Positions 1 to 29,696 of a stretch of 34,131 nucleotides of DNA are shown here, piece by piece (positions within the stretch are counted from its first letter, which is position 1; every line of letters starts with the position of its first letter). Origin of the DNA: a virus; IMG/VR virus record IMGVR_UViG_3300042556_002710, positions 1-34,131 of that record. One strand, written 5' to 3'. A program made the translations under genes and the position numbers. Below the pieces are notes generated by a model. That model did not search any database. It saw nothing but the letters and a program-made list of their open reading frames with translations, and had not been told where the DNA came from.

Positions 1-57
1 CCTAGATTTGCTATGTCTTCTATAGATGAAAGAGATCTAGACAAGAAAAATAAGTAG
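1..57 (+). CDS. C-terminal tail of an upstream gene (partial)
   Basis: Frame 1 is open from the window edge to a TAG at 55-57. It gives only 18 residues, rich in charged amino acids (SSIDERDLDKKNK). The piece is too short to assign a family. A strong terminator follows at once, so this is probably the last gene of the preceding, likely structural, transcription unit. Reading it as coding rests on the open frame and the terminator position only. Confidence 0.45.
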   Translation, partial: PRFAMSSIDERDLDKKNK

Positions 58-69
58 TAGCTATAAAGC

Positions 70-109
70 GCAAACGGAGTAGAAATCTCTACTCCGTTTT
101 TGCTTTTTT
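70..109 (+). terminator. Rho-independent terminator
   Basis: An 11-bp perfect stem, AAACGGAGTAG (72-82) with CTACTCCGTTT (89-99), encloses a 6-base loop. It is followed by T-rich sequence, TTGC then six T (100-109). It separates the upstream unit from the oxygenase cluster. Confidence 0.88.
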
Positions 110-125: not shown

Positions 126-932
126 ATGCCTACAGCAAAAGACTCAAGCCCAAACATAAAGTGGCCACTTCCCCCGGGGAGGCCGGCTTTTTCTGTAAAA
201 AATTTTTTTCCGGTTAAAATTTATGAGTCAATTAGAGAGACTATAAAAACTAATGCAATCTGGGGGCCGGAACATCGGAACAATCCAGCCTGCGAGCCAT
301 ACCACACGATGACTGGTAGATGGACCACTGAAGTATTTTTTTCAGGAGAGATAAAAAATTTTTTAGAAGATTCTGCAAGAAAAAAATGGAAGAACAATAA
401 AATTAAATTAAAAAGCATATGGTTAAGCAGGTACCAACAGTATCAAGGAGTAACACCTTATTTATGGGAGCATATGGACCAAGGTCCCGCTCAATATGAA
501 ATTGACGTTTGTATAGAATCAAACAAAATAAACAATTGGGGGCTAATAGTAGACGGTCAAAGATTTGACGAGGAAGAAAATAATGCAATATTTTTTATGG
601 GACAACAACAGGCCCACGGGCGGCCACCCTATCCAGTAGATGATGAAGAAGCATATGTAATATTGCTTTTTGCCATGTTTGTAGATCCAAGTCATTGGAT
701 GTACGAAATAGATGCATACGCCGAGGAAGACGCCCCAAAATGGGATAAAGCCATAAAAAAATACAAACTCGACGGGGATATTAGGTATTACGAGTATTCT
801 GGCCATGCCCCCAGGTATGACAACAAACCCGACGGAAATTATCTATGCTCCAGAGGAGAATGCGGCCCCTGCACGGTAGTGCCAGAGAATTTTATAGATG
901 AAATAGACGGGTACATCAGACTTGACGAATAA
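126..932 (+). CDS. Divergent 2OG-Fe(II) oxygenase-like protein (paralogue 1 of 2)
   Basis: This 268-residue protein is probably a cupin-fold 2-oxoglutarate/Fe(II) oxygenase. A candidate metal triad is H116-x-D118 (EHMD) and H164 (QQAHGR), with R166 as a possible 2OG-binding residue. The stretch around 138-190 (WGLIVDGQRF, FFMG, AHGRPPYP, DPSHW) aligns by eye with the product of 1935-2537 (WPLIIEGREF, FMGG, MHSRGDMPYP, PEDHW), so the two are paralogues. They flank a glycosyltransferase gene. The C-terminus carries C241, C246 and C249 (CSRGECGPC), absent from the paralogue. It lacks the YEGGE signature of the seven P4H-like neighbours. The start is an ATG without Shine-Dalgarno behind a TAGAAT element. 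The substrate is unknown; the fibre proteins downstream are candidates. Family assignment is good, specific function unknown. Confidence 0.62.
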   Translation: MPTAKDSSPNIKWPLPPGRPAFSVKNFFPVKIYESIRETIKTNAIWGPEHRNNPACEPYHTMTGRWTTEVFFSGEIKNFLEDSARKKWKNNKIKLKSIWLSRYQQYQGVTPYLWEHMDQGPAQYEIDVCIESNKINNWGLIVDGQRFDEEENNAIFFMGQQQAHGRPPYPVDDEEAYVILLFAMFVDPSHWMYEIDAYAEEDAPKWDKAIKKYKLDGDIRYYEYSGHAPRYDNKPDGNYLCSRGECGPCTVVPENFIDEIDGYIRLDE

Positions 933-1929
933 AAAAATTCTTGTGTCGATGATTGCGTATAGAGAAAAATATTTAGCGGAGTCAGTAAAAGATTGCTACA
1001 AAAAAGCTAAAAATCCAGAAAATTTATTATTTTCTATAGTTTCAGAGCAAAGCAAAAAGGAACTCCACGCAAATTTAGATTTTATTCCAGAAAACCAAAT
1101 AATTTATAGAACATACGAGCTTACAGAATACCGAGGCGTTCTATGGTCTAGAGCAAAAACTTTAGAAGTAAATTTTGACTATGACTACATTTTGTATACG
1201 TGCGGCCACAACAGATTTGTAGAAGATTGGGACGAGAAAGTTTTTATAGAATATGAAAAATCAACAAAAAAAGCAGAAAAATCTTTAATAACAATTGCAG
1301 CCCCAGAGTATCGAGTTGGCAAAAACGGAGAAGCAATTACAGATGAGGATTGGCTTAGGCAATCTAATGTTAGACGACCAAAACTACATAATGGCTATAT
1401 TCCAGGCCACGGTTGGGCCAATGTTATTTCATTCTCAGACGGAGAAACCGATCTTTCTGAAGAATGCTATTTGCAGTTTAGCTGGGTATTTGCACCTAAA
1501 AAATATGTAGAAGAAGTTCCTTTAGACCCAGATATGAACTATCACGGGGAGGAAATTTATACGACTGTCCAAACTTGGTGTAGGGGGTGGAGAATGTTTA
1601 CTACTCCTCAAATTCTTTATTATCATGATACCTATAAAGAGTATTATGGCGAAGAAGAGTCTAGGATGACCACCCACAGACCATGGAGTGACACAAACAA
1701 AGACGCATTTTGGAAGCAATCTGACGAATCTATGTTGAAGTTAAATAAGCTGCTATCCGGAAATTTAGAGGGTAAGTACGGAAACATCTCAAAATCTTCC
1801 GTTTTAGAGTATTGTAATTTTTCCGGCCTTGACCCAAAATGGTGCGAGTATGATGAAAATTTTAATAGGCTGACAGTAAAAAGACATGCCGAAGATTTTA
1901 GATATGCTAACCCCAAGACAGAAATTTAA
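922..1929 (+). CDS. GlcNAc-transferase-like glycosyltransferase (Skp1 Gnt1 / PF11397-like)
   Basis: This is a 335-residue GT-A glycosyltransferase. Strand 1 is KKILVSMIAYR (4-14). It is followed by RGVLWSRAKTL (71-81), ILYTCGHNRFVEDWD (90-104), VPLDP (199-203), GEE (209-211) and H235 in ILYYHDTY. From memory, this order matches the family of the Dictyostelium Skp1 hydroxyproline GlcNAc-transferase (AR, DSHxRF..WD, VPYDP, GEE, H). The usual DxH metal motif reads C94-G-H96, so the Asp is replaced. The start is a TTG overlapping the previous gene by 11 bases; the next Met would remove the first beta strand. Family precedent plus ten surrounding oxygenases suggests it glycosylates hydroxylated residues on a phage protein. 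A DNA or cell-wall acceptor cannot be excluded. No signal peptide or membrane segment, so cytoplasmic. Confidence 0.75.
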   Translation: MTNKKILVSMIAYREKYLAESVKDCYKKAKNPENLLFSIVSEQSKKELHANLDFIPENQIIYRTYELTEYRGVLWSRAKTLEVNFDYDYILYTCGHNRFVEDWDEKVFIEYEKSTKKAEKSLITIAAPEYRVGKNGEAITDEDWLRQSNVRRPKLHNGYIPGHGWANVISFSDGETDLSEECYLQFSWVFAPKKYVEEVPLDPDMNYHGEEIYTTVQTWCRGWRMFTTPQILYYHDTYKEYYGEEESRMTTHRPWSDTNKDAFWKQSDESMLKLNKLLSGNLEGKYGNISKSSVLEYCNFSGLDPKWCEYDENFNRLTVKRHAEDFRYANPKTEI

Positions 1930-1934
1930 ATTTT

Positions 1935-2537
1935 ATGCATTTTGAACCAGTATTAATAGAAAATATATTTTCTATGGAAGATAGAAATAAGTTAATTGAA
2001 GTTTTAAAAACTAGCACCCCAAATAAAAATTGGCTAGACCCAGACAAAAATAGGGAAGTTAAAAAATACACCGAGCTAGAGACCTATTTTAGTAAAAAAT
2101 TAGAGCCAATTGCAAGGCAAATATTTAAAGATTCTTCGCTAAAAACTAGTTATTCAGTTTATTTAAATTACAATAAGCCAACCTCTAGTTTGCCTCCACA
2201 CAAAGATAATAATGCTTGCACGTATACAATAGACTATTGCGTATCACAAAAGACTCCCTGGCCCCTAATAATCGAGGGTAGAGAATTCCAGATTCCCGAA
2301 AACGCTGGCCTTGCATTTATGGGGGGGCATGACATGCACAGTAGGGGCGATATGCCCTACCCAGAGACAAATATTGTAGAGACAATAATGTTTCATTTCT
2401 GCCCAGAAGATCACTGGTACTTTACAGAAGGTCCAGAGTACGGCTATTATTTGCTTGATAATAATTTACTAGAAAATTTTGAATCTTACTATTTAAGCCC
2501 CCAGAGGAAACCAAAAGGAGATAGACTGTACCTATGA
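1935..2537 (+). CDS. Divergent 2OG-Fe(II) oxygenase-like protein (paralogue 2 of 2)
   Basis: This 200-residue protein has a likely Fe(II) triad of H89-x-D91 (PPHKD) and H135 (DMHSRG), with R137 nearby as a possible 2OG anchor. Family-like elements follow the HxD: YTIDYCV, WPLIIEGREF, then FMGG before the distal His. It is shorter than its paralogue at 126-932, mainly lacking the N-terminal 20-30 residues and the Cys-bearing tail. It begins five bases after the glycosyltransferase stop with an ATG lacking a clear Shine-Dalgarno, so it may be translationally coupled. It ends four bases into the next gene. Substrate unknown. Confidence 0.62.
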   Translation: MHFEPVLIENIFSMEDRNKLIEVLKTSTPNKNWLDPDKNREVKKYTELETYFSKKLEPIARQIFKDSSLKTSYSVYLNYNKPTSSLPPHKDNNACTYTIDYCVSQKTPWPLIIEGREFQIPENAGLAFMGGHDMHSRGDMPYPETNIVETIMFHFCPEDHWYFTEGPEYGYYLLDNNLLENFESYYLSPQRKPKGDRLYL

Positions 2538-3265
2538 GCGATTGGTTTACAAAAGACAGGTCAGAGACAGCGTCTAATAGAATGCCAGACAGGCAGTTTG
2601 CCCATACTACTGTTTTAAACCCAGCGTTGGGAATAAATGTATATAGAAATGCATTCCCCGAAGGGCAATGTAAAAAATTTATAGACACATTAGAGTCAAG
2701 TTTAAACGGCCAAACCCAGTGGGGCTGGAATGGAGCACACGTCACCACCTCTGAAGAAGTAGATTTAGAGTCTAGAAATGCAAAAGATTTTAAATTTAAT
2801 TCAGTGGGTCTAGGACCACGCACAGAAGAAAATTCTGCTTTGTATGACATGCACTCAGAAATTTTCAACACTGTCAGAGCCTGCGTAGATGACTATGGCC
2901 GCTACTGGGGCGTTGGAATTATGTCATATGAAGCATTTAATTTTGTTAAGTATGAGGGGGCTGGAACCCACTTCAAAATTCATGCTGACCATGGACCAAC
3001 ATATGTTACGACTGTATCAATAGTTGTCTACTTAAATGATGACTACGAAGGCGGCGAAATTTGGTTCCCAAGATTTGATTTAATCCATAAACCAAAAGCT
3101 GGCGACATTGTCGTATTTCCATCCACCTACATTTATGAGCACGCATCTCAAGATATGATTTCTGGGACTAAGTACTCTGTCGTCATCATGAGTGACTATA
3201 ATGACAGAGATAACGTTAACCAGAGAGTCCCACAAACCATTCAACAATATCAACTTAAGTACTAA
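2534..3265 (+). CDS. Prolyl 4-hydroxylase-like 2OG-Fe(II) oxygenase (copy 1)
   Basis: This 243-residue protein has the full P4Hc pattern. Y140 and G144 lead to H150-A-D152 (iron), then YLNDDYEGGEIWFP (166-179), KPKAGDIVVFPS, distal H203 (YEHAS) and K213 (SGTKYSV), the expected 2OG carboxylate anchor. P4Hc enzymes hydroxylate peptidyl proline, or related side chains, using O2 and 2-oxoglutarate. The N-terminal 30 residues look disordered; VLNPALGINVYRNAFP starts the fold. It starts at an ATG (ATGAGC) overlapping the previous stop by four bases, behind AAAGGAG. The likely substrates by context are the collagen-like fibres downstream, but this is inferred. Motifs are intact, so it should be catalytically active. 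Confidence 0.9.
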   Translation: MSDWFTKDRSETASNRMPDRQFAHTTVLNPALGINVYRNAFPEGQCKKFIDTLESSLNGQTQWGWNGAHVTTSEEVDLESRNAKDFKFNSVGLGPRTEENSALYDMHSEIFNTVRACVDDYGRYWGVGIMSYEAFNFVKYEGAGTHFKIHADHGPTYVTTVSIVVYLNDDYEGGEIWFPRFDLIHKPKAGDIVVFPSTYIYEHASQDMISGTKYSVVIMSDYNDRDNVNQRVPQTIQQYQLKY

Positions 3266-3278
3266 ATTGGAGAATAAA

Positions 3279-4061
3279 TTGTCAGAACAACTAGCTCAAG
3301 TAGATAGCGAATCATCTGCAGAGACTTCCTTGTCGAGGGAAGAAAAAGGAAAAATTGAACAAGAGCAGATGCAAGATAGACTCAGAAAATGGTACACAAT
3401 TGATGAAGTAACTTGGAGCTCTGCCGAAGAAGTCGTGCCAGGCTCCGGAATCTGGGTATATCACGATGTAATAACTCCAGATATGAGCGTTATTGATCGT
3501 CTAGAAGAGGTATTGATCAGTGACGATAATAACTACGAATACCAAGAAGCAATGGTTGGGTACTCCATGAAAATTCCCGAGTATCGCGACTGCGTAGATT
3601 TTAAATATAAAGAGCATGATTTTGACAACGACCAGAGCGAGTGGGGAGATAAATTAAGAAAACTAGCTCAAGAAACAAAATACAAGCAGCTACAAGTTGT
3701 AAAAGACTACACCAGAAGGTATAACATTGGTGAGCTTAGATATTGGGAAGCTACCAACTACGTTAAATATGGCCCGGGCCAACACTTTCAAGAGCACCAC
3801 GACCACGGGTACTCTTATAACTGCGTAGTTTCTTTGGTGGCTTTTCCCAACGACAACTACGAGGGCGGAGAACTATACTTCCGGCTACAAAATGTTATGG
3901 CTAAACCAAAGGCCGGAGATGTTTTTATCTTCCCATCAAACTTTATGTATCCACACAGAGCCATGCCGGTAAAGTCTGGAACTAAATACTCAATGGTAAC
4001 AATGCTTGACTATTCAGACAAGTTTCATGATGGAGTATTTTTAGAAGAAACAGGATCATAG
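3279..4061 (+). CDS. Prolyl 4-hydroxylase-like 2OG-Fe(II) oxygenase (copy 2)
   Basis: This 260-residue protein has Y164, G167, H173-H-D175 (EHHDHG), FPNDNYEGGELYF (189-201), KPKAGDVFIFPS, H226 (MYPHR) and K236 (SGTKYSM), a complete P4Hc active site. It is closest by eye to copy 1 (DHG after the HxD, matching SGTKYS and PKAGD blocks), which suggests tandem duplication. The frame is open further upstream to 3192, but the TTG at 3279 is preferred: GGAG sits eight bases before it and it avoids a 74-base overlap. The first 35 residues are polar, low-complexity and probably disordered. The substrate is not shown by the sequence. Confidence 0.9.
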   Translation: MSEQLAQVDSESSAETSLSREEKGKIEQEQMQDRLRKWYTIDEVTWSSAEEVVPGSGIWVYHDVITPDMSVIDRLEEVLISDDNNYEYQEAMVGYSMKIPEYRDCVDFKYKEHDFDNDQSEWGDKLRKLAQETKYKQLQVVKDYTRRYNIGELRYWEATNYVKYGPGQHFQEHHDHGYSYNCVVSLVAFPNDNYEGGELYFRLQNVMAKPKAGDVFIFPSNFMYPHRAMPVKSGTKYSMVTMLDYSDKFHDGVFLEETGS

Positions 4062-4062
4062 A

Positions 4063-4785
4063 TTGTCAGTAATCTCTGTAACTAGAGCATACCCGGACGC
4101 AGCTAATATTGAACAGCTACAAGCTCGCCGTGAGTGGATGGACGACACCCCAGAAAAGCACGCCTACATGTGCTTTCCGCTCAATTTAACAAATAGATTG
4201 GGTTGGGGGGTATCTTTCCCCGAGGAGATTAGATTTGTTTGGGACGGCATAACAGACACAACGCCAGACCACATAACTATTTTATCTGGGGAAAAATATG
4301 TTTATACCGGTAGAGGTAATGCAACAATTAGTTTTAATACTGGATTAATTTTTAAAACCGACAAGCAAACAACAATGCTCACCATGCCAGTTCCAAACTT
4401 ATTTATTAGGGGTGCTCAGTGTTATACAACCTTGATAAGCACTTCTTTTTATTTTCACACTCTGCCAATAGCGTGGAGAATTACAGAGCCAAATATTGAA
4501 ATAGTGATTCCAGCAAATATGCCAATTGCAACTGTTTTGCCGCTGTCTCTAACTCAGCTAGAAAACAATTATGAACTACAAATTAGCCCAGATTACCCAA
4601 CTGAAGAGTACTGGCAAGAAGTGAGAAAATACGGAGATGCGGCAGAAATCAAAAATGGCGTTGCCGACTGGTCAAAAATGTACAGAGATGCCGTAGATTA
4701 TCGAGGAAATTCAGTGGGCGCTCACGAGACAAAATCAATAAAATTAAAAACTTCTGTTTGTCCAGTAACCGGGAGGAGCTTATAG
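4063..4785 (+). CDS. DUF6065-like protein of unknown function (paralogue 1)
   Basis: This 240-residue protein starts at TTG 4063, two bases after the previous stop, behind AGGA. Conserved-looking blocks are YMCFPLNLTNRLGWGVSFP (35-53), a Trp/Asp-rich turn, MPVPNLF, TLISTSFYFHTLPIAW and IVIPANMPIATVLPLSL. From memory this resembles the DUF6065 family; I could not check it. The beta-rich pattern suggests a jelly-roll or cupin-like fold, but no HxD...H iron triad is evident. The next gene shares the pattern (P-x-N, LPF/LPI, IPA..P.A.ILP), so they look like a diverged pair. Placement inside an oxygenase operon suggests an accessory or substrate-handling role, which is inference. Confidence 0.6.
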   Translation: MSVISVTRAYPDAANIEQLQARREWMDDTPEKHAYMCFPLNLTNRLGWGVSFPEEIRFVWDGITDTTPDHITILSGEKYVYTGRGNATISFNTGLIFKTDKQTTMLTMPVPNLFIRGAQCYTTLISTSFYFHTLPIAWRITEPNIEIVIPANMPIATVLPLSLTQLENNYELQISPDYPTEEYWQEVRKYGDAAEIKNGVADWSKMYRDAVDYRGNSVGAHETKSIKLKTSVCPVTGRSL

Positions 4786-4787
4786 CC

Positions 4788-5528
4788 GTGGAAACTAAAA
4801 AAATTAGATTTGTAAAAAATAGACCATGGTTATCAGAAGAGAGTAATTCTACACCGAAACCAGTTATGAAAACTCTTCCAGACTGGTACAGAAAAGCAGA
4901 TCGATTTGCTATAAACCCTATGACTCAAAAGCCCTGGGAGATGCCAGATGGTAGCGGAAAAATTCCAACCTGGAAAGCGTGTCCAGCGGTTTTTGATGTT
5001 ATGGGCAGCGGATATGTGTATAGAACCCCCTGCGACATAGAGTTTTATGAAGATTCAATGGGCCAGATAAATGCAAAAGTTTTAGACAATCAAAATAATG
5101 ATTTTCTTCAAGTAAGACCCCCAATGCCACAGTTTGTGGCTCCTCAGGGATATCATGAAAAACACTTTGCTTGGTGGGCCGATTGGGCAGTAGAGCTGCC
5201 AGATGGATACAGTGCTCTGTACACTCAGCCAATGAATAGGTTTGAACTCCCTTTTTTGACAACCAGCGGGATTATTGACAATGACAAAGTTAATCTTCCT
5301 GGCACAATGCCATTTTTTGTAGTTAAGGGTTTTACCGGAATATTGCCAGCCGGAACCCCCTACGCGCAAATTTTGCCATTTAAGCGGGACCACTGGGAGT
5401 CTGAAATTGATGTTTCTTTAGAGTATGAAGAGATGGCAGAAAAAAACCAAAAAAATAGCGATAAGTATCGAGTACCAGACGGCGGCGTCTACCAAAAAGA
5501 GGTCTGGGAAAGGAGAAAGTATGAATAG
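4788..5528 (+). CDS. DUF6065-like conserved phage protein (paralogue 2)
   Basis: This 246-residue protein starts at GTG 4788, three bases after the previous stop, behind the strong Shine-Dalgarno GGGAGGAG. The open frame extends 30 bases further upstream, but that would overlap the upstream gene and lose this site. Notable blocks are KTLPDWYRKADRF, IPTWKACPAVFDVMGSGYV, YTQPMNRFELPFLTT and ILPAGTPYAQILPFKRDHW. The last two correspond to the end of the upstream DUF6065-like protein. It looks like a soluble beta-rich enzyme or binding protein, with no signal peptide or transmembrane segment. I recall similar PDWYK/CPA proteins in cyanophages and pelagic phages, but have no function for them. Its exact role is unknown. 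Confidence 0.6.
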   Translation: METKKIRFVKNRPWLSEESNSTPKPVMKTLPDWYRKADRFAINPMTQKPWEMPDGSGKIPTWKACPAVFDVMGSGYVYRTPCDIEFYEDSMGQINAKVLDNQNNDFLQVRPPMPQFVAPQGYHEKHFAWWADWAVELPDGYSALYTQPMNRFELPFLTTSGIIDNDKVNLPGTMPFFVVKGFTGILPAGTPYAQILPFKRDHWESEIDVSLEYEEMAEKNQKNSDKYRVPDGGVYQKEVWERRKYE

Positions 5529-5542
5529 GGTAGGATATAACC

Positions 5543-6223
5543 ATGTCTGATGAATACACAAATAATAGGTCTGGAGAGTTTGAATCCACCACCCCGTCTG
5601 GCTTTTTCGGGGACTCTGCAGACAACATTGTCGCTATTGAAGACTTTATGACAGAAGAAGAGCTGACAATTCTAAATGAGTTTGCTAGAAAAAACACTAT
5701 TTGGGACGTAACAGAAACACACTACGACGATGACGGAGTTGTGATTTACGACTCTGGTTACTGGGACCACAGGGTTGCCACCGAACCAACTCTAAATATT
5801 GCTGACCCAGAAATACCTAAAGTTATTAAAAATATGCAAAATAGATTAAAAACTAGAGTTGACGAATTTTTTAGTGTTGATGCCCATCCAACAAGCCCAG
5901 CAATTGTTAGATGGCTACCGGGACAGCGCCAACAACCACACGCAGACAAAGAACTACACGAAGGCGAAAACCGCGGAAAGCCTAATGACTTTCCCTACTA
6001 CGATATCGCAGGACTTTTTTATATAAATGATGACTACGAGGGAGGGGAACTTTACTTCCCAAATCAGGGTCTTCAATTTAAACCAAAAGCTGGAGCTGCT
6101 TACTTTTTCCCAGGTGACATGAATTATATCCACGGCGTCACAGAAATCAAGTCAGGAATAAGATATGTTTGTCCATTTTTCTGGACAATTAAATCCCACA
6201 CTGGCCCTCGGAAACCAGAATAA
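5543..6223 (+). CDS. Prolyl 4-hydroxylase-like 2OG-Fe(II) oxygenase (copy 3)
   Basis: This 226-residue protein has IVRWLPGQRQQPHAD, with iron ligands H133 and D135, then FYINDDYEGGELYFP (159-173), FKPKAGAAYFFPG, distal H197 (YIHGV) and R207 (SGIRYV). Arg replaces the Lys of copies 1 and 2 as the 2OG anchor. The fold begins at IVAIEDFMTEEELTILNEF (29-47), the helical start typical of P4Hc proteins. The ATG at 5543 follows TAGGAT, whose AGGA can act as Shine-Dalgarno; the hexamer also fits a leaderless -10 six bases upstream. Fourteen bases separate it from the preceding stop. An intact active site makes an active enzyme likely; the substrate is inferred only from neighbours. Confidence 0.9.
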   Translation: MSDEYTNNRSGEFESTTPSGFFGDSADNIVAIEDFMTEEELTILNEFARKNTIWDVTETHYDDDGVVIYDSGYWDHRVATEPTLNIADPEIPKVIKNMQNRLKTRVDEFFSVDAHPTSPAIVRWLPGQRQQPHADKELHEGENRGKPNDFPYYDIAGLFYINDDYEGGELYFPNQGLQFKPKAGAAYFFPGDMNYIHGVTEIKSGIRYVCPFFWTIKSHTGPRKPE

Positions 6224-8536: not shown

Positions 8537-9466
8537 ATGGAAAACATAAAACTAGGTAAATACTCTGTAAAAGTTTTAGATTCAAAAATACTGGTTTTTC
8601 AGGATGTAATAGAAGATCCAGAGGGATTGATTGACTACTACGAAAAAAATGTTGAATGGGACGGCTGGCACGGGTTTGGTACACAAAGTAAAGAGCATGC
8701 AACAAGACTTTTTAGTGACGAGTTCCCCACAGAAGAGCAATACGCAGCTGATTTGATGGACAGAGTGCCAGAAAATCCATACAGAAATAAAATCTATAAA
8801 AATTTTTATGAGCTATCAAAACTATACACCGAGTACACCGGCATTAAACTAAAAAACTGGAGTACTGGCCAATGGTCAGTCGCAAAATACATTCCAGACG
8901 TAAATCATATAAATAATGAATTTAAGTCAATGGGCCACCACACCGACTACCAGCAAGATAGATATGGTCAACCCGGAGAAAAATTTGGGATAACTTCCGT
9001 ATTTTATCCGAACGATGATTACGAGGGCGGAGAGATATCTTTTAGAGTTTTAAATCTAAAAAATTTTTCTGTTGAAAAGGAAATAAATTACAAACCAAAA
9101 AAGGGTGAAGTAATATTTTTCCCATCTACAGAGCCCTACTATCACGGAGTTCTTCGAATATGGGGCAAGCCAAAATATATTATGAGACTTTACTGGCTAT
9201 GGAACGACGAGGGAAAAGATGGCTGGCACGACTTAAGAAGAAAGCACGGCAACGAGGCCTTCGAGCAGATGGAAAAAGATAGAATTAGACGCTTTGATTT
9301 GAGCGTTTATGAACCCGTGCAGCGGCCACTACTAACCTTTAAAGAATACTATGAAATGCTTGAAAACGGCACCCTGCCCCCGTTTATAGATAACGGAGAG
9401 CACGAAACTTTAGTTGCTCTAAGAAATAAAAAACTTAGTGAAGGATTTGAGCCATATGAGCTCTGA
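8537..9466 (+). CDS. Prolyl 4-hydroxylase-like 2OG-Fe(II) oxygenase with C-terminal extension (copy 6)
   Basis: This 309-residue protein is the longest P4H-like copy. The core holds VAKYIPDVNHIN, HHTD (iron ligands H135, D137), FYPNDDYEGGEISF (156-169), YKPKKGEVIFFPS, distal H203 (YYHGV) and K213 (KPKYIM). The N-terminal KILVFQDVIEDPEGLIDYYE resembles copy 4. After the core comes an extension of about 85 residues (225-309), rich in charged residues, that the other copies lack. It could be a substrate-recognition or oligomerisation arm. The ATG has a strong AGGAG six bases upstream. It ends 11 bases inside the start region of the next gene. Confidence 0.9.
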   Translation: MENIKLGKYSVKVLDSKILVFQDVIEDPEGLIDYYEKNVEWDGWHGFGTQSKEHATRLFSDEFPTEEQYAADLMDRVPENPYRNKIYKNFYELSKLYTEYTGIKLKNWSTGQWSVAKYIPDVNHINNEFKSMGHHTDYQQDRYGQPGEKFGITSVFYPNDDYEGGEISFRVLNLKNFSVEKEINYKPKKGEVIFFPSTEPYYHGVLRIWGKPKYIMRLYWLWNDEGKDGWHDLRRKHGNEAFEQMEKDRIRRFDLSVYEPVQRPLLTFKEYYEMLENGTLPPFIDNGEHETLVALRNKKLSEGFEPYEL

Positions 9467-11087: not shown

Positions 11088-15893
<4,806 letters not shown>

Positions 15894-15894
<1 letters not shown>

Positions 15895-16799
15895 TGTCTG
15901 GCGTATTGGCCGGATTGATCGGGTCGTACTCTGTTGCGCCACCAAGTGGTGGAACAATCACTACGTCTGGTAGCTACACATACCACACATTTACTTCTTC
16001 TGGAAATTTTGTAAACACAGTTCAAAATTTAAATGTTGAATATTTAATTGTAGCGGGAGGTGGCAGCGCTTCTACTAGTTTTCACGGTGGCGGTGGCGGT
16101 GGTGCGGGTGGTTTACGGACTGGCTCTCTCGCCATCGAGGCAGTTAGTTATCCGGTCGTAGTCGGGGCGGGCGGATCGACAACACCAGCAAGTAACACAA
16201 ATGGATCAAAAGGAAATGATTCATCGTTTGGTTCTTTCCCTGCAACTCAGGCTGCCGGTGGGGGCGCTGGCATTATGAATTGGGAAAATACCATTGCTAA
16301 CGGTGGATCTGGTGGCGGAGCGTGTAATGTTTCTGGTAATCCATCTTTTAGAGGAACTGGAATTTCCGGGCAAGGAAATAATGGTGGAAGTTCTTTTGCA
16401 TCCAACTCAGAGATGTCTTGGCCAGGCGGCGGCGGGGGTGGAGCAGGTCAAGTTGGTCAAAATGCACAGAGCGTAAACTACGGCGGCGCGGGAGGGAACG
16501 GACTACAATACTCGACCTGGGCAACTGCAACTAATACAGGAGACGGCGGATACTATGCAGGTGGTGGCGCTGGAGGAATTAACGGACAAGCTGTTGGAGC
16601 TGGTATTAGCAACGCCATTCAGGGGGGACTGGGCGGAGGCGGAAATAGTGGCGTTTGGTTTGGTCCATCCAACGGATATCCGGGTGATATAAATACGGGT
16701 GGCGGCGGCGGAGCACCCAATTTTGGCAATGGCAGTACTGGCGGAGCTGGTGGTTCCGGCATTGTGATAATTAGATATTTAACAAGTCAGGTCCCATAA
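15894..16799 (+). CDS. Glycine-rich tail adhesin
   Basis: This 301-residue protein starts at ATG 15894 (overlapping TGATG). An upstream in-frame ATG at 15864 is rejected because it would overlap fibre 2 by 31 bases. After YTYHTFTSSGNF and VEYLIVAGGG come repeated glycine runs (GGGGGGAGG, GGGGGGAGQVG, GGAGGNG, YAGGGAGG, GGLGGGGNSG, GGGGGAPNFG) alternating with variable loops. The end is GGAGGSGIVIIRY. From family knowledge, such proteins resemble T-even gp38-type adhesins, whose glycine tracts pack as polyglycine-II helices and whose loops bind the receptor. Location after the fibres fits a receptor-binding tip. No metal or catalytic motif is seen. Confidence 0.8.
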
Positions 16800-17166: not shown

Positions 17167-18168
17167 ATGCCAACAATAAATTTTCCAGATAATCCGCTAA
17201 TAGGGCAGGTGTTTACAAGTGGGTCCCAATCATGGACCTGGAATGGCACGTACTGGGAAGCCAATAAGACAGCTGTTTTGCTCGGCCCTACGGGCCCAAC
17301 AGGGCCAACAGGCCCCACTATTACAGTTAGTATTGGTGATGTAACTCCGGTAGCAGCAGAATTTGCCAATGTGTTTGTTTCTGGAAGTAATGAAAATGTT
17401 ATTTTAAACTTTGATGTGCCTCAGGGACCACCTGGGCCCTCTGGAATAAATTTAAATATAGTTTCAAATGTTCCAGATGTAGATTCACTTCCAGATAATG
17501 ACAATCAATTAAATGATGCATTTATTGTTGAAGAAGATGGTTGTCTTTATGTTTGGACGGGAGAATTTTGGAATAACGCTGGTCAAATTGTAGGGCCTCA
17601 GGGACCTACTGGTGATACAGGTCCTACTGGACCGCAAGGTGACACAGGGCCAGAAGGTGCTGCATCAACAATCCCTGGACCGCAAGGCGAACTTGGACCT
17701 ACTGGACCAACTGGCGCAACGGGACCTGCGAGCAATGTAACTGGCCCAACTGGCCCCACGGGGTCGCAAGGTATTGAAGGCCCCACCGGCCCCACCGGCC
17801 CCACGGGAGCTGCAAGCACAGTCGCTGGTCCAACTGGCGCAACGGGTGTAACTGGCCCCACGGGGTCGCAAGGTATTGAAGGCCCCACCGGCCCAACAGG
17901 AGCTACTGGAGCTGCTAGCACAACGCCGGGGCCAACAGGAGCTACTGGTCCCACAGGGCCGCAAGGTATTCAAGGCCCAACGGGTCCGACAGGCCCCACG
18001 GGAGTTGGCGCTTATTCAGGCACTACACCAGTAAGTATTTCTGGGAGCTCAATCTCTTTATCTGGTGGATATGCTTTTTATCAAGCTGGTAATTCTTACC
18101 CTGTAATATATGTAGGAACAACAGCGCCATCCAGCGCAAATACCGGAGATATCTGGATTAGCTTCTAA
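17167..18168 (+). CDS. Collagen-like tail fibre protein 3
   Basis: This 333-residue, shorter fibre shares the N-terminal cap of fibre 2 ([22 protein letters not shown]). A short GPT tract is followed by a beta module ([20 protein letters not shown]). PQGPPGPSG then leads into a WDG module (nt about 17446-17590; [20 protein letters not shown]). A main collagen tract follows (17591-18003) with ASNVT, ASTVA and ASTTP links. The C-terminal 55 residues ([20 protein letters not shown] to WISF) form a small beta tip. The same cap and module suggest it attaches in the same way as fibre 2. GPP occurs here, which puts a rare Pro at position Y. Confidence 0.88.
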
Positions 18169-18189: not shown

Positions 18190-19782
18190 ATGGGTTCTTA
18201 TTATCTAAGAGCTAATTTTAGCCTACGTCCTCAATATTCTATAGATTTAGATGTAACTACTAGCTTTCAAACTTCGGGTGGTGTTACTGGAACAGTAGTA
18301 AACGTAGTTGCAAACGGTGTTAAACACACAACAGTAAACAATGCCCCAACAAGCACCGGGTCCCCCAGATCGTATAACGTACCAAATGGAAGAGTGACAA
18401 ACGTAAACGGTACAGTTACGGCAACAGGTAGCGATAGCGCTTGGGCGTTTACGTTTACAACTGGAGCCGTACCACAAATTCAACCAATTTGGAGTGGTTT
18501 TAACAGATACGTTAGACATTCAGACGCATCCACAATCAGCGTTAGCGTTTCCGCCTCTCATAGCCTTTTAGGGGATGCTACAGCAACCATCAGCAGCATC
18601 CCCCATGTGCATAGAATAACTTTTAATGGTAATGGTGGTACGGCATCCGCGACATCCACTGATGTAGATAGCGGAACTTTTACCCCTCTACCAAGTGCAA
18701 GTAGAAGTGGATTTACATTTAATGGTTGGTATACGGCGTCGTCCGGTGGATCATTCGTGGGTGGAGCTGGAGATGTTTATTTTGTATCAGCAACGACAAC
18801 TTTATTTGCACAGTGGTCGGTCCAGTATAGTCCAGCTTCTATAACTGACGGAGTTGCTAACAGATCTTACAGAGTTGGAGACTCTGTATACGAATACGTT
18901 GCTGCAACAAACACAAACTCTACCTTAGGCACCGGAGGGGCTAGTTTTAGTTTAAGTACTTCTATTCCTGGAATTTCTTTAACTGATTACGGATCTTATG
19001 CTGAAATTACAGGAATAGTTGGAGCTACTTCTACCAGTAACTACTCGGTTTCAGTAACCGCCCTGGGTCCCGGAGGAAACGCAAGCAGCACGGGAAGCTG
19101 GTCAATCAGTCAAGCTTTGCCTTCATGGACTGACACAACTCTAGCTAGTGGTAGAAAAAATGTAGCTTATAGCTCGACGTTTAGGGCTGCTAATGCTACA
19201 TCTTGGAATATATCTGGAGTACCGCCAGGTCTGTCTGCATCAGGAACAACTGGTGCCATGGTAACAATTAGCGGAACACCCACCGGTTTCGGGTCATACT
19301 CAATTACTGCAACACCTAGAAATTCAGATAATACTGATGGCGATACGCAAATAATATCTTTTAATATTTTAGATGCGTCTTTGTCATGGACCGATCAAAT
19401 TTTAGCTACAAGCTTAGCTACTCAAGGAATATCGTACTCAGACGGAGTGTCAGTAGCTAGTGGACCAGTTGTAACCTACTCAATTTTTAGTGGTTCTTTG
19501 CCACCAGGCGTATCACTAAATTCTTCGACTGGAGCAATTACGGGAACTCCAACAACTGCTGGAACTTATAATTTTGCAGTTAGGGCAACAAACGGTTCTA
19601 GCGAAACTATTAACACTAGTACGCTAACAATAACAGTTGCAGCAGCTGGAGGATATGTCAAAGTTTGGAATGGATCTTCCTGGGCAAACGGTACGGCTTA
19701 CGTAAGACAGTCAGGACAATGGGTTCAAGGAACAGTTCAAATAAGAAACGGCGGCAACTGGGGAAACAGTTTTTCTAACTAG
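18190..19782 (+). CDS. Ig-like / InlB-repeat tail adhesin
   Basis: This 530-residue, Ser/Thr/Gly-rich beta protein begins with MGSYYLRANFSLRPQYSIDL and VTTSFQTSGG strands. It carries an InlB B-type repeat at about 143-212 (ITFNGNGG, FTFNGWYTASSGG, TTLFAQW) and then two or three putative Ig (He_PIG) domains, the last with LPPGVSLNSSTGAITGTP. The C-terminus is VKVWNGSSWANGTAYVRQSG, a short repeat ending common in phage tail proteins. It has no signal peptide. CAGGG lies six bases before the ATG. These domains commonly mediate adhesion to surfaces or sugars, so it is probably a virion adhesin. It converges with the next gene, overlapping by eight bases. Confidence 0.82.
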   Translation: MGSYYLRANFSLRPQYSIDLDVTTSFQTSGGVTGTVVNVVANGVKHTTVNNAPTSTGSPRSYNVPNGRVTNVNGTVTATGSDSAWAFTFTTGAVPQIQPIWSGFNRYVRHSDASTISVSVSASHSLLGDATATISSIPHVHRITFNGNGGTASATSTDVDSGTFTPLPSASRSGFTFNGWYTASSGGSFVGGAGDVYFVSATTTLFAQWSVQYSPASITDGVANRSYRVGDSVYEYVAATNTNSTLGTGGASFSLSTSIPGISLTDYGSYAEITGIVGATSTSNYSVSVTALGPGGNASSTGSWSISQALPSWTDTTLASGRKNVAYSSTFRAANATSWNISGVPPGLSASGTTGAMVTISGTPTGFGSYSITATPRNSDNTDGDTQIISFNILDASLSWTDQILATSLATQGISYSDGVSVASGPVVTYSIFSGSLPPGVSLNSSTGAITGTPTTAGTYNFAVRATNGSSETINTSTLTITVAAAGGYVKVWNGSSWANGTAYVRQSGQWVQGTVQIRNGGNWGNSFSN

Positions 19783-23043: not shown

Positions 23044-23904
23044 ATGAAAATTTTTATTGCAACTCCAATGTACGGCGGGATCGCCAAAAATCCCTACACA
23101 ATTAGCCTACAGAATCTAATAGTAAAGCTCTCGCAGTCGGGTCACTCTATTATGACCACGACCGTTGGAAACGAGAGTTTAATTACTAGAGCAAGAAACA
23201 CTTTAGTGCATAAGTTTATGAAGACAGACTGCGATGCGCTGCTCTTTATAGACGCCGATCATGGCTGGAACTCAGATGATGTACTAAAAATGATTCAGTC
23301 AGGCAAAGACTTTATTGGTGCAATTTATCCAATGAAAGGCCTCAACTGGGAAAATATTAAGGCAGCAGCCTTAATAGGTAGACCAGCATCAGAACTTGAA
23401 AAATATTCCGGGTATTTTGCAATAAATCTTTTACCAGAAAATCAAACTTTTAACGAAAATGAGCCATTTAAGGTAAAAGATATTGGAACTGGGATGCTTT
23501 TTTTGACTAAAAAAGTTTTCCAAGACTTAGAGCCACACTGCAAAAAATATAAAAATAACAATGTCGGAGACACTGGAATTCAGTTTGGCGAAATGGTAAC
23601 TGAGTACTTTACAACTTTTATTGATGAAGACATACTTTTATCTGAAGATTATGCTCTTTGTAGGATGTGGCAAAGAATTGGTGGCGAAGTTTGGTCAGCC
23701 CCCTGGGTAAAAATAACCCACTCTGGTGACTATAATTTTTCAGGCCAATTTGGAAGAATGCTGGAAGCCAACAATTTTAGAAAAATTTTAGAGCTAGCAG
23801 AAGCTGCAAAGCAATCAAATTCAGATGAAAAAGACTCCCCGCTAGAAAACGTAGAACTTCTTGAAAGTACAGAAGTAGAAGAAAAAGAACCTTCCAAGGA
23901 GTGA
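23044..23904 (+). CDS. GT-A glycosyltransferase-like protein
   Basis: This 286-residue protein has MKIFIATPMYGG at the start of a Rossmann-like domain, ITRARNTLVHKFM (47-59) and DADH (70-73), a DXD-type metal/sugar-nucleotide motif. VKDIGTGMLFLTKKVF follows, then a Glu/Ser-rich tail from about 258 that is probably disordered. Phage proteins of this type (ARN, FIDADHG) are commonly assigned as glycosyltransferases. The acceptor is unknown: fibre, DNA or cell wall. ATG after TAGGAT, eighteen bases from the primase stop. It is followed by a hairpin at 23913-23935. Confidence 0.75.
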   Translation: MKIFIATPMYGGIAKNPYTISLQNLIVKLSQSGHSIMTTTVGNESLITRARNTLVHKFMKTDCDALLFIDADHGWNSDDVLKMIQSGKDFIGAIYPMKGLNWENIKAAALIGRPASELEKYSGYFAINLLPENQTFNENEPFKVKDIGTGMLFLTKKVFQDLEPHCKKYKNNNVGDTGIQFGEMVTEYFTTFIDEDILLSEDYALCRMWQRIGGEVWSAPWVKITHSGDYNFSGQFGRMLEANNFRKILELAEAAKQSNSDEKDSPLENVELLESTEVEEKEPSKE

Positions 23905-25596: not shown

Positions 25597-26664
25597 ATGA
25601 AAGTTGCAGTTTACACCATAGCCCTTAACGAGGAAAAATTTGTTAAGCGCTGGTATGAAAGTGCTAAAGATGCTGATTATCTTCTAATCGCTGATACCGG
25701 GAGCACAGATGGAACTCAAGAAACTGCAAAATCCCTAGGGATCAATGTCATTGATGTTCGAGTAAGACCTTGGCGATTTGATGATGCTAGAAATGCATCA
25801 TTAGTTGCAATACCAGAAGACGTAGACTACTGCATATCTCTAGATATGGATGAAATTTTACTGCCCGGCTGGAGAGAATCTTTAGAAAAGGCTTTAGAGC
25901 AAAACATAACTAGGCCTAGATATAAGTACACATGGAGCTGGTCAAATGCAGAAGAAACTAAACCAGGCCTTCAATATGGGGGCGACAAAATACACGCTAG
26001 AAAAGGCTATAGGTGGACGCACCCAGTCCATGAAGTACTGAAAACTTATGGAGAAGTGAAAGAGGCCCAAGGCTGGGTAGATTTAGAAATTCATCACCAC
26101 CCAGACAACAGCAAATCTAGGGGGCAATATTTCCCTCTTCTAGCTATGGCCGTAGCAGAAGCACCATATGACGATAGGAACGCCTATTATTACGCTAGAG
26201 AGCTTTATTTTTACGGTAAGTACGAAGAGGCTATAGAAGAATTTAAACGTCACCTAGGGCTTCCTACGGCCAATTGGGCCCCAGAGAGAGCCGCCTCTAT
26301 GCGCTATTTAGCAAAAATAGAAAAAGATAAAAAAGAAGAGTGGCTAGTAAAAGCCCATATGGAGGCCCCCTGGAGGAGAGAAGCCTTAGTGGAGCTTGCC
26401 CAGCATTTTTACGAGCAAGAGTCATGGGCCTCTTGCAACCACTTTGCCAAGAAAGCTATAGCAATTGAAGAAAAGCCGCTGGACTATCTTTGTGAAGATT
26501 TTGCTTGGGGAGCTCTTCCGTACGATCTAGCTGCTATTTCAGCGTATTATTTAGAAAACTATAATGAGGCATATAAGTATGGAAATACCGCATGTCAACT
26601 AAATCCAACTGATAAAAGACTTAAAACTAATCTTCAGTACTATTCTGTTGCAGTTTCTTCTTAG
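25597..26664 (+). CDS. GT2-family glycosyltransferase with TPR-like C-terminus
   Basis: This 355-residue protein has MKVAVYTIALNEE, DTGSTDGT (33-40), PWRFDDARNAS (58-68) and LDMDE (82-86), the DXD metal motif. It is a classic GT2 (GT-A) nucleotide-sugar transferase. From about 190 on it becomes helical, with repeats YYARELYFYGKYEEAIEEFKR and alternating Ala/Tyr, TPR-like, possibly binding the acceptor. The ATG lies two bases after the preceding stop without a strong Shine-Dalgarno. It converges with the WhiB gene with a 38-base overlap. The acceptor is unknown; phage DNA, a fibre or a host glycan are all possible. Confidence 0.82.
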   Translation: MKVAVYTIALNEEKFVKRWYESAKDADYLLIADTGSTDGTQETAKSLGINVIDVRVRPWRFDDARNASLVAIPEDVDYCISLDMDEILLPGWRESLEKALEQNITRPRYKYTWSWSNAEETKPGLQYGGDKIHARKGYRWTHPVHEVLKTYGEVKEAQGWVDLEIHHHPDNSKSRGQYFPLLAMAVAEAPYDDRNAYYYARELYFYGKYEEAIEEFKRHLGLPTANWAPERAASMRYLAKIEKDKKEEWLVKAHMEAPWRREALVELAQHFYEQESWASCNHFAKKAIAIEEKPLDYLCEDFAWGALPYDLAAISAYYLENYNEAYKYGNTACQLNPTDKRLKTNLQYYSVAVSS

Positions 26665-27106
26665 CTTCTATTAAGTGATAGGCATCTACCGCATTTGCGC
26701 TAGTTCTGCTTTGCCAAGTGAAATGACAGCTATCACATCTAACAATTCTCATAGTAGACCATCTACCGCCTTCAGGTCTGTCAACAGTAGCTGTTTTTAA
26801 CTTGTCAGTTTTTGATTTACAGTGAGGGCAAAGAGGAAATCTTTTGTATCTCATTTCCTGTCCGTCCCAATTTACAGACAGAGTATTTCTAATCTGCTTG
26901 TAGTCAAGTCCTCCCCATATTCCCCATAACTGCTTATTATCTAGGGCCCACTTTAAGCAGTCCTTTTTAACTGGACACACCGAGCAAAGCTTTTTAGCTT
27001 CCCATTGCTGGGAAGGCTTATTTGCAAAAAAATTATCAATTTTGTCTTTATTTTCATATTTGGCGCATTCAGCATCTTCATGCCAATCTGGTGAATCAAA
27101 GAACAT
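26627..27106 (-). CDS. WhiB-family regulator with C-terminal zinc ribbon
   Basis: This 159-residue protein has the WhiB iron-sulfur ligands C14, C41, C44 and C50 (ECAKY; LCSVCPVKKDC) and the turn GIWGG (62-66). These are the hallmarks of actinobacterial and actinophage WhiB regulators, which bind a [4Fe-4S] cluster and the principal sigma factor. A second unit (about 91-135; CPHCKSKTD and CDSCHFTW) looks like a zinc ribbon, unusual for a WhiB. It probably controls host or phage promoters, which is family knowledge plus inference. ATG with GAGG upstream, 11-base overlap with the next gene up. Confidence 0.88.
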   Translation of the reverse strand: MFFDSPDWHEDAECAKYENKDKIDNFFANKPSQQWEAKKLCSVCPVKKDCLKWALDNKQLWGIWGGLDYKQIRNTLSVNWDGQEMRYKRFPLCPHCKSKTDKLKTATVDRPEGGRWSTMRIVRCDSCHFTWQSRTSANAVDAYHLIEAKKKLQQNSTED

Positions 27107-28685: not shown

Positions 28686-29696
28686 TTAAAATCTAGTCCT
28701 CTCTAAGTTAGATACTATCAGAATTTTTTCTACTTCAGCGGAAAGTTCGCTTGTAGATGGCAACGCCTCCAAATAGACGCCCCTCTGGGTAGAGGCAAGT
28801 TGCTGCCTCTGAGCCGGAGACATATCTTCTACCTGATAAGCCAACATAGACCAACTCGGGCTAAACCCCTGAGTGTCAGGCCAGTAGGTGACCAGCGGGG
28901 TAGAAGTATTTAGGGCTTGAATTATTCTATAGTTCCACCAAGTAAGTAAAGTTCTTTCCTGAGGCGGAATAATTAAGCCAACACCGGACCTGATAACTTC
29001 CAGAGCATAGTCATCATCCGTTTTCCTCCCAAGCTTAGTTGGTTCTTTGGGAAAAACTGTTGACTTGTTTACATACTCAAGCCAGCTATTTTTGATGTTT
29101 TCTACTGACCAGTAGTCTTTTCTGCCAATTCTAGGAGTCTCTGGATCTATGAACAAAGAATCAAAGTTCACTCCTAAAACTTTTTTCTCATCCCCGAAAC
29201 CAAGCAGAGAAGCTACCTTCTCATCCGTATTCCAAGGAAGACTCGGGTAAATAATGGTTGGCCATTCAGTAACCATCATGTGAGCAATTGCCTTTTCTAC
29301 AACGGAAGGATTTTTTAAAGCTTTTTGATAACCCTCTCTTTTAGCGTAGAAATTGCCAAAAAGAATAGAAGGATTTTTAATAGACGCAGCTATGCTGTTT
29401 TTATACTGCCAAACCTGAGGGCTGTCCACGACAAGCTTAAGCTTGGGGGAATCAAACATTAGTCCAAGTACGTTTAGCGCTCCATAAAGTTTGTTTGCGC
29501 TCAAGGAAGTCGGGGGAAGCAGACCAAAAATAATTAGATCATACTTTTCTAGATCTTCTAGTTTCCAAGACATCTCTGGGGATGCCCAGGTAATTTCAGC
29601 ATGTTCGGAAAGAACAGTATCTAAAATAGTAAAAAAACTCGTATTAGTTGGTTTTTTGCAATGATGGGATCCCATGCCTGTAAATAAAATTTTCAT
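28686..29696 (-). CDS. Putative GT-B glycosyltransferase-like protein
   Basis: This 336-residue protein has MKILFTGMGSHHC at the start of a Rossmann-like domain, followed by LEKYDLIIFGLLPPTS. A second domain has GVGLIIPPQERTLLTWWNYRI and IQALNTSTPLVTYWP, where the Pro-rich/Glu turn recalls the sugar-nucleotide site of GT-B enzymes. The two-domain layout and length fit. I assign it weakly because no unique family motif is visible. ATG preceded by GGAC, six bases. A stem-loop sits between it and the SSB-like gene. With three other glycosyltransferases, sugar addition seems a theme of this phage. Confidence 0.5.
   Translation of the reverse strand: MKILFTGMGSHHCKKPTNTSFFTILDTVLSEHAEITWASPEMSWKLEDLEKYDLIIFGLLPPTSLSANKLYGALNVLGLMFDSPKLKLVVDSPQVWQYKNSIAASIKNPSILFGNFYAKREGYQKALKNPSVVEKAIAHMMVTEWPTIIYPSLPWNTDEKVASLLGFGDEKKVLGVNFDSLFIDPETPRIGRKDYWSVENIKNSWLEYVNKSTVFPKEPTKLGRKTDDDYALEVIRSGVGLIIPPQERTLLTWWNYRIIQALNTSTPLVTYWPDTQGFSPSWSMLAYQVEDMSPAQRQQLASTQRGVYLEALPSTSELSAEVEKILIVSNLERTRF

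Follow-up and report, generated by a model that had tools for sequence, protein, structure and literature searches.

A phage GT60-like glycosyltransferase with an altered metal motif, encoded in a 2OG-oxygenase cassette next to proline-rich tail and collagen genes

The window analyzed here is the whole 34,131-nucleotide stretch of viral record IMGVR_UViG_3300042556_002710. It carries a GT60-like glycosyltransferase (GT) gene in a cassette which, with a probability of about 0.4, serves to modify post-translationally the phage's own proline-rich adhesion proteins, namely an FN3-(PPFF/Y)n tail protein and collagen fibres. In the proposed pathway the 2OG oxygenases, with f126 (the product of gene 126-932, directly upstream of the GT) as usual partner, would hydroxylate the repeat tail at proline or at a residue next to it, and the GT would then attach a sugar to the hydroxyl made by the cassette. 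The evidence consists of sequence and predicted structure, and the contigs compared are fragments. The relevant features are the following.

1-57 (+): end of an FN3-(PPFF)n tail-protein gene, comprising its final 18 codons plus stop; the contig begins inside this gene
72-108 (+): intrinsic terminator at the boundary of tail gene and modification cassette; 12-bp stem, 4-nt loop, T-run
126-932 (+): f126, predicted partner 2OG oxygenase; Pfam-silent, assigned by fold and HxD...H
922-1929 (+): GT gene, PF11397 / GT60-like glycosyltransferase; predicted GT-A fold nearest polypeptide GalNAc-transferases
1201-1209 (+): C94-G95-H96, standing where the family has the D-x-H metal motif
1546-1554 (+): GEE motif, G209-E210-E211; E211 invariant
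1624-1626 (+): H235, C-terminal metal-ligand His position; invariant in 20 relatives
1935-2537 (+): another 2OG-like gene without a Pfam match; HxD...HxR as seen in the sequence, PHROG 2954
2534-3265 (+): P4H-like 2OG-Fe(II) oxygenase; PF13640 8.6e-11, H150xD...H203...K
3192-4061 (+): P4H-like 2OG-Fe(II) oxygenase; PF13640 5.7e-13, H202xD...H255...K
4063-4785 (+): DUF6065 protein, constant cassette member; PF19541 1e-26, conserved order
4758-5528 (+): protein without Pfam match, constant cassette member; conserved order
5543-6223 (+): 2OG-Fe(II) oxygenase; PF13640
6267-7046 (+): 2OG-Fe(II) oxygenase; PF13640
7048-7686 (+): 2OG-Fe(II) oxygenase; PF13640
7683-8528 (+): TauD/TfdA-type 2OG oxygenase; PF02668 3.6e-14
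8537-9466 (+): 2OG-Fe(II) oxygenase; PF13640
9913-10647 (+): 2OG-Fe(II) oxygenase; PF13640
11087-13393 (+): collagen-type fibre protein, Gly-Pro-Thr rich; PF01391, triplet counts
13393-15894 (+): collagen-type fibre protein, Gly-Pro-Thr rich; PF01391, triplet counts
17167-18168 (+): third collagen-type ORF; PF01391 (whole-record search), triplet counts

The glycosyltransferase and its metal motif

ORF 922-1929 encodes 335 aa from a TTG start and overlaps the stop of gene 126-932; its relatives have ATG at the matching position. The original prediction had placed the product in the Skp1 GlcNAc-transferase family (PF11397) on the basis of the motifs SRA, GHxRF..WD, VPLDP, GEE and YYHD. All are present, as SRA (residues 76-78), GHNRF (95-99) with WD (103-104), VPLDP (199-203), GEE (209-211) and YYHD (233-236), and the profile search which it had asked for returned PF11397 with E=2.4e-20 and 73.8 bits (curated Pfam cut-off 21). 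Since this score lies far over the cut-off and 20/20 GT relatives, in a divergent alignment, match the same profile, the assignment is far from chance. PHROGs places the GT in a phage glycosyltransferase family. A sequence search against solved structures gave no match for the GT, and NCBIfam gave none for the GT, f126 or the 1935 gene. In the cultured-phage collection GT relatives were found only at 22-24% identity (XacN1, CM1, RAS14), no 2OG gene was found in the GT neighbourhoods of XacN1 and RAS14, and f126 had no relative.

An AlphaFold2 model of the GT, built on 8 sequences, shows a GT-A fold (pTM 0.82, mean pLDDT 76). The best solved fold match was to the polypeptide GalNAc-transferases of family GT27, with Z 20.6 for GalNAc-T2 (rmsd 3.4 over 266 residues), and the next-best other fold scored Z 16.2. 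In an analysis of GT-A enzymes, GT27 was grouped with GT60, both having DxH rather than DxD (PMC7185993).

The metal motif of the window's GT is CGH and not the family DSH, the catalytic Asp being replaced by Cys. CGH was present in 27/27 non-redundant members of the clade, and the remaining 46 sequences comprised 45 with DSH and one with DAH. On a quick tree built from the alignment minus the motif columns, the Asp-to-Cys replacement mapped to one change (clade support 92). The bacterial-genome relatives in the tree have DSH, so the CGH form could not be traced to a bacterial source among them. The profile match, the GT-A fold and the C-terminal His of GT60 were all found. Since the defining DxH motif is changed to CGH, the enzyme is, judged by sequence, only GT60-like, belonging to a divergent clade and not a canonical member. 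Across 20 relatives at 27-62% identity H96, E211 and H235 are invariant, which together with the invariant CGH speaks for a constrained active site. For glycosyltransferase enzymology, the replacement of Asp by Cys in a catalytic metal motif across a whole clade is interesting in its own right.

The cassette, its upstream tail gene and its downstream fibres

The GT gene sits among seven PF13640 2OG-oxygenase genes, together with TauD-type and DUF6065 genes, upstream of three collagen-type ORFs. Against solved structures the array profile matched viral and Bacillus prolyl 4-hydroxylases (P4H) first (5.6e-10), then prolyl 3-hydroxylase 1 and LH3, and the HxD...H and distal Lys/Arg (iron and 2OG residues) are present in the array enzymes. 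The true start of gene 3192-4061 is probably downstream of 3192, because relatives are about 250 aa long.

Window-clade relatives (49-62% identity) have the order f126-GT-(1935)-2OG-2OG-DUF6065-4758 with minor variations. The 1935-type gene is missing in some of them, and its family also adjoins DSH-type GTs. Whole-record searches identified between 2 and 15 PF13640 genes per window-clade contig, with collagen on most of the longer contigs. The array, as one of P4H-like genes, and the embedded transferase of the original prediction are borne out by the seven PF13640 genes with their match to P4H structures and by an embedding conserved in all window-clade relatives. The phage fibres which it had invoked are encoded downstream as collagens, accompanied by an upstream tail-protein gene which the prediction had not seen.

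The more distant CGH relatives (loci L027-L053, 39-46% identity) are located between RuvC-like resolvase and terminase genes, and on these incomplete contigs no 2OG or collagen match was found. One of them, L049, has four 1935-type 2OG-like genes in a row beside the CGH transferase (3428-5959) at a locus without PF13640 genes. Sister DSH-type transferases (L055-L063) are located in related 2OG cassettes, adjoining proline-rich proteins; relatives of 4758-5528 also adjoin these transferases. Two of these loci (L057, 5952-7781; L062, 507-2192) encode an FN3 protein that carries repeats of TPTAP or PPTPP and whose C-terminal end, as read from sequence, looks like a Hint-type self-processing domain.

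The f126 product is predicted to be a 2OG oxygenase, based on the double-stranded beta-helix fold of its model (pLDDT 92; structural matches 2OG oxygenases, best Z 13.2) and on HxD...H; residues H116, D118, H164 and R166 are invariant in 18 relatives. It is the usual partner of the GT. Among 70 loci complete in the interval, 11 had GT and f126, 5 had f126 only, 3 had GT only and 51 had neither; a test for correlated evolution of the two genes, with 4 well-supported independent pairs, was not significant. In L022 the GT is followed directly by an f126-PF13640 fusion, the sole PF13640 match on that 39-kb contig. Ser-Arg-His-rich upstream extensions of f126 (L127, 2341-3369; L106, 836-1840) were rejected as a real domain, being the (PPFF)n gene read out of frame.

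In frame 1 the window's first 54 bases read PRFAMSSIDERDLDKKNK followed by a stop, and the tail proteins of relatives end at the matching place (...FPPRFAITSIDEREL in L017, ...FPPRFGMSSIDEREL in L136). Full-length relatives are fibronectin-III proteins whose C terminus is a (PPFF/PPYF)n tail, about 55-90 residues long. The (PPFF)n repeats are known from these relatives, the window covering the last 18 codons of the gene. The terminator at 72-108 has an MFE of -23.9 kcal/mol (z -6.1).

In loci chosen by the 2OG gene only, with at least 2.5 kb of upstream sequence, a (PPFF)n tail gene was located upstream of the array in 39/41. In the GT clade it was present in seven of eight loci, the eighth (L021) having SPPGFF repeats. 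It was found at 0/20 CGH loci without 2OG arrays and at 0/18 far DSH loci. For 72/72 (PPFF)n genes, overlapping loci being counted repeatedly, the next gene on the same strand was a cassette gene, at a median gap of 67.5 nt. A scan of viral contigs for the repeat DNA gave at least 120 stretches, and among the matches listed 2OG genes accompanied many and a GT few. Based on the 39/41 linkage and on the 51 of 70 complete loci without GT and f126, the 2OG array and the (PPFF)n tail are the basic pair, to which GT and f126 are added in some phages; from the same 51 loci it follows that the tail does not need the GT. FN3 proteins with such (PPFF/PPYF)n tails, encoded immediately ahead of 2OG arrays, occur widely (L170-L249 and others), for the most part in loci without the GT. 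No published description of them was found.

The downstream collagens contain 341 triplets, of which 201 have Thr and 2 have Pro at position Y; Pro is almost only in X. Pro in X with Thr in Y is the ordinary composition of bacterial collagen (PMC8968730). Position-X Pro may still be a target, since both X and Y are hydroxylated by the B. anthracis P4H, which favours Y (PMC8968730). Beside the collagen genes are genes for a glycine-rich protein (15864-16799) and for a putative Ig-domain protein with a Listeria-Bacteroides repeat (18190-19782).

A WhiB gene is present at 26627-27106(-). Since WhiB, considered a marker of actinophages (PMC10202952), was found in 18/28 records, a set made up of the window and related contigs, the hosts are probably actinobacteria. 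Three further possible sugar-handling genes encode a GT-A-like protein with a DAD motif (23044-23904, PHROG 1574), a GT2 with TPR-like repeats (25597-26664, PHROG 13126) and a 336-aa protein (28686-29696(-)); they might function in glycan extension or DNA modification.

Candidate acceptors

The acceptor of the GT is probably a phage structural (tail or fibre) protein. A two-step reaction of the hydroxyproline (Hyp) type, in which the sugar goes onto a residue that the cassette has hydroxylated, is possible at somewhat below even odds, and the sugar would, by analogy with the family, be HexNAc. The order hydroxylation-then-glycosylation is plausible on the gene content. From the two-step route of the original prediction the family, the array, the embedding and the fibre genes stood. 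Its Hyp acceptor did not follow in the same way, because the acceptor cannot be read off from PF11397 membership: some GT60 enzymes act on Thr, the predicted fold is nearest the Thr/Ser transferases, and CGH relatives occur without nearby 2OG genes.

In favour of Hyp are the composition of the repeat tail, which has Pro, Phe and Tyr, the partner f126, a predicted hydroxylase, and the location of the sister DSH transferases, likewise in 2OG cassettes beside proline-rich proteins. The repeat tails contain no Thr, no Lys and 0-2 Ser, so that a sugar there would need hydroxyproline or Tyr. Tyr of PPYF is unlikely as a general acceptor, some GT-positive tails having a single Tyr (L016, L018, L020, L101), and a Lys acceptor in the manner of Mimivirus hydroxylysine was rejected, Lys being nearly missing from both collagen triplets and repeat tails. 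Precedents are Gnt1 for sugar on hydroxyproline (PMC6939170) and Mimivirus L230 for viral hydroxylation followed by glycosylation, on Lys (PMC9614988). Against a strict need for 2OG enzymes are the CGH relatives L027-L053, which on incomplete contigs lack nearby 2OG genes. The strongest version, true hydroxyproline O-glycosylation outside eukaryotes, in which f126 and P4H-like enzymes and the Cys-x-His GT would act on (PPFF)n and yield an extensin-like glycoprotein adhesin, is a tentative and rather unlikely proposal.

It is also somewhat unlikely, but has to be weighed, that the GT directly O-glycosylates Thr (or Ser), chiefly in the Gly-Pro-Thr collagens or in FN3 domains, with the 2OG enzymes acting separately and no sugar linked to Hyp. 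The collagens offer Thr at Y in more than half of their triplets, and the fold is nearest to Ser/Thr GalNAc-transferases. C. difficile SgtA places beta-O-GlcNAc on Thr of BclA3 collagen peptides (PMC7157674), and TcOGNT1 of family GT60 forms GlcNAc-alpha-Thr (PMC9472816). The protein adjoining the sister DSH transferases contains TPTAP/VTPTA repeats. However, Thr-rich collagens are equally common in GT-free relatives, whereas f126 does track the GT, and the nearest proline-rich protein, encoded directly upstream, has a Thr-free repeat tail. Between GT-free and GT-positive relatives Thr at collagen position Y differed little (0.57 against 0.51), an uninformative contrast; Thr supply thus does not track the GT.

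Quite improbable is a non-protein acceptor, either a host surface glycan (superinfection exclusion, receptor change) or a small molecule, the adjacency to 2OG genes then reflecting a variable host-interaction island. This would fit the CGH relatives without 2OG genes in the replication/packaging region and the proposal that glycosyltransferases of freshwater actinophages alter host cell wall or DNA (PMC10202952), but the characterized GT60 and GT27 enzymes considered act on polypeptides, and this reading leaves unexplained why the GT gene is conserved beside f126 and the tail gene. A CGH form without normal catalysis, serving as a binding or scaffold protein as COSMC does to T-synthase, is very unlikely: Cys has taken the place of the catalytic DxH Asp throughout the clade and COSMC did lose its motifs and turn chaperone (PMC7185993), but H96, E211 and H235 remain invariant down to 27% identity, CGH itself is invariant in 27 lineages, and some GT-A families (GT14, bacterial GT6) are active without DxD or metal (PMC7185993).

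In 2022 a survey of viruses from the Baltic Sea stated that the use of abundant viral prolyl 4-hydroxylase genes "remains cryptic" (PMC9301287). With 2OG arrays placed tightly behind it, the (PPFF)n gene supplies a concrete candidate substrate, and mass spectrometry could put this question to the test. In the open-licence literature no paper was found that links prolyl hydroxylase and collagen with phage tail fibres, nor anything useful on PF11397 and phage, nor anything on hydroxyproline in phage tails. Should the GT act on hydroxyproline, a phage would possess a hydroxyproline-glycoprotein pathway, and its attachment to the host would likely be affected.

Comparison with known systems

The 2OG array has its best solved sequence relatives in vCPH of Paramecium bursaria chlorella virus and the P4H of Bacillus anthracis. 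These are single enzymes, whereas here arrays of up to 15 occur with a GT and a (PPFF)n tail gene. The polypeptide GalNAc-transferases (GT27) are the closest solved fold of the GT, at Z about 20, and share the C-terminal His position; the window's GT differs in having 13% identity to them, no lectin domain, and Cys for the Asp of the metal motif.

Trypanosoma cruzi TcOGNT1/2 belong to the same CAZy family, GT60, and act on mucin Thr without hydroxylation. As expected of a Thr-type system, a Thr/Ser-rich candidate acceptor is encoded nearby in the window (the Gly-Pro-Thr collagens), equally so in GT-free relatives. C. difficile SgtA/BclA3 likewise combines a GT gene with an adjacent Gly-Pro-Thr collagen gene, and the BclA3 collagen carries sugar, but its acceptor is Thr and no hydroxylase cassette has been described. 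Mimivirus L230 likewise provides a viral hydroxylase and glycosyltransferase for a collagen-type protein; it differs in acting on Lys, as a single bifunctional protein with a GT of another family.

Skp1 Gnt1 (GT60, PF11397) of Dictyostelium/Toxoplasma, with the P4H PhyA, has the same Pfam family and motif layout and acts after a prolyl 4-hydroxylase; P4H-like genes, the seven with PF13640, lie in the same cassette as the window's GT. Its acceptor is the cytosolic regulator Skp1, with one Hyp, and its DxH is canonical. The window's enzyme, in contrast, has CGH, is phage-encoded, and is accompanied by many 2OG enzymes and by repetitive tail or collagen proteins.
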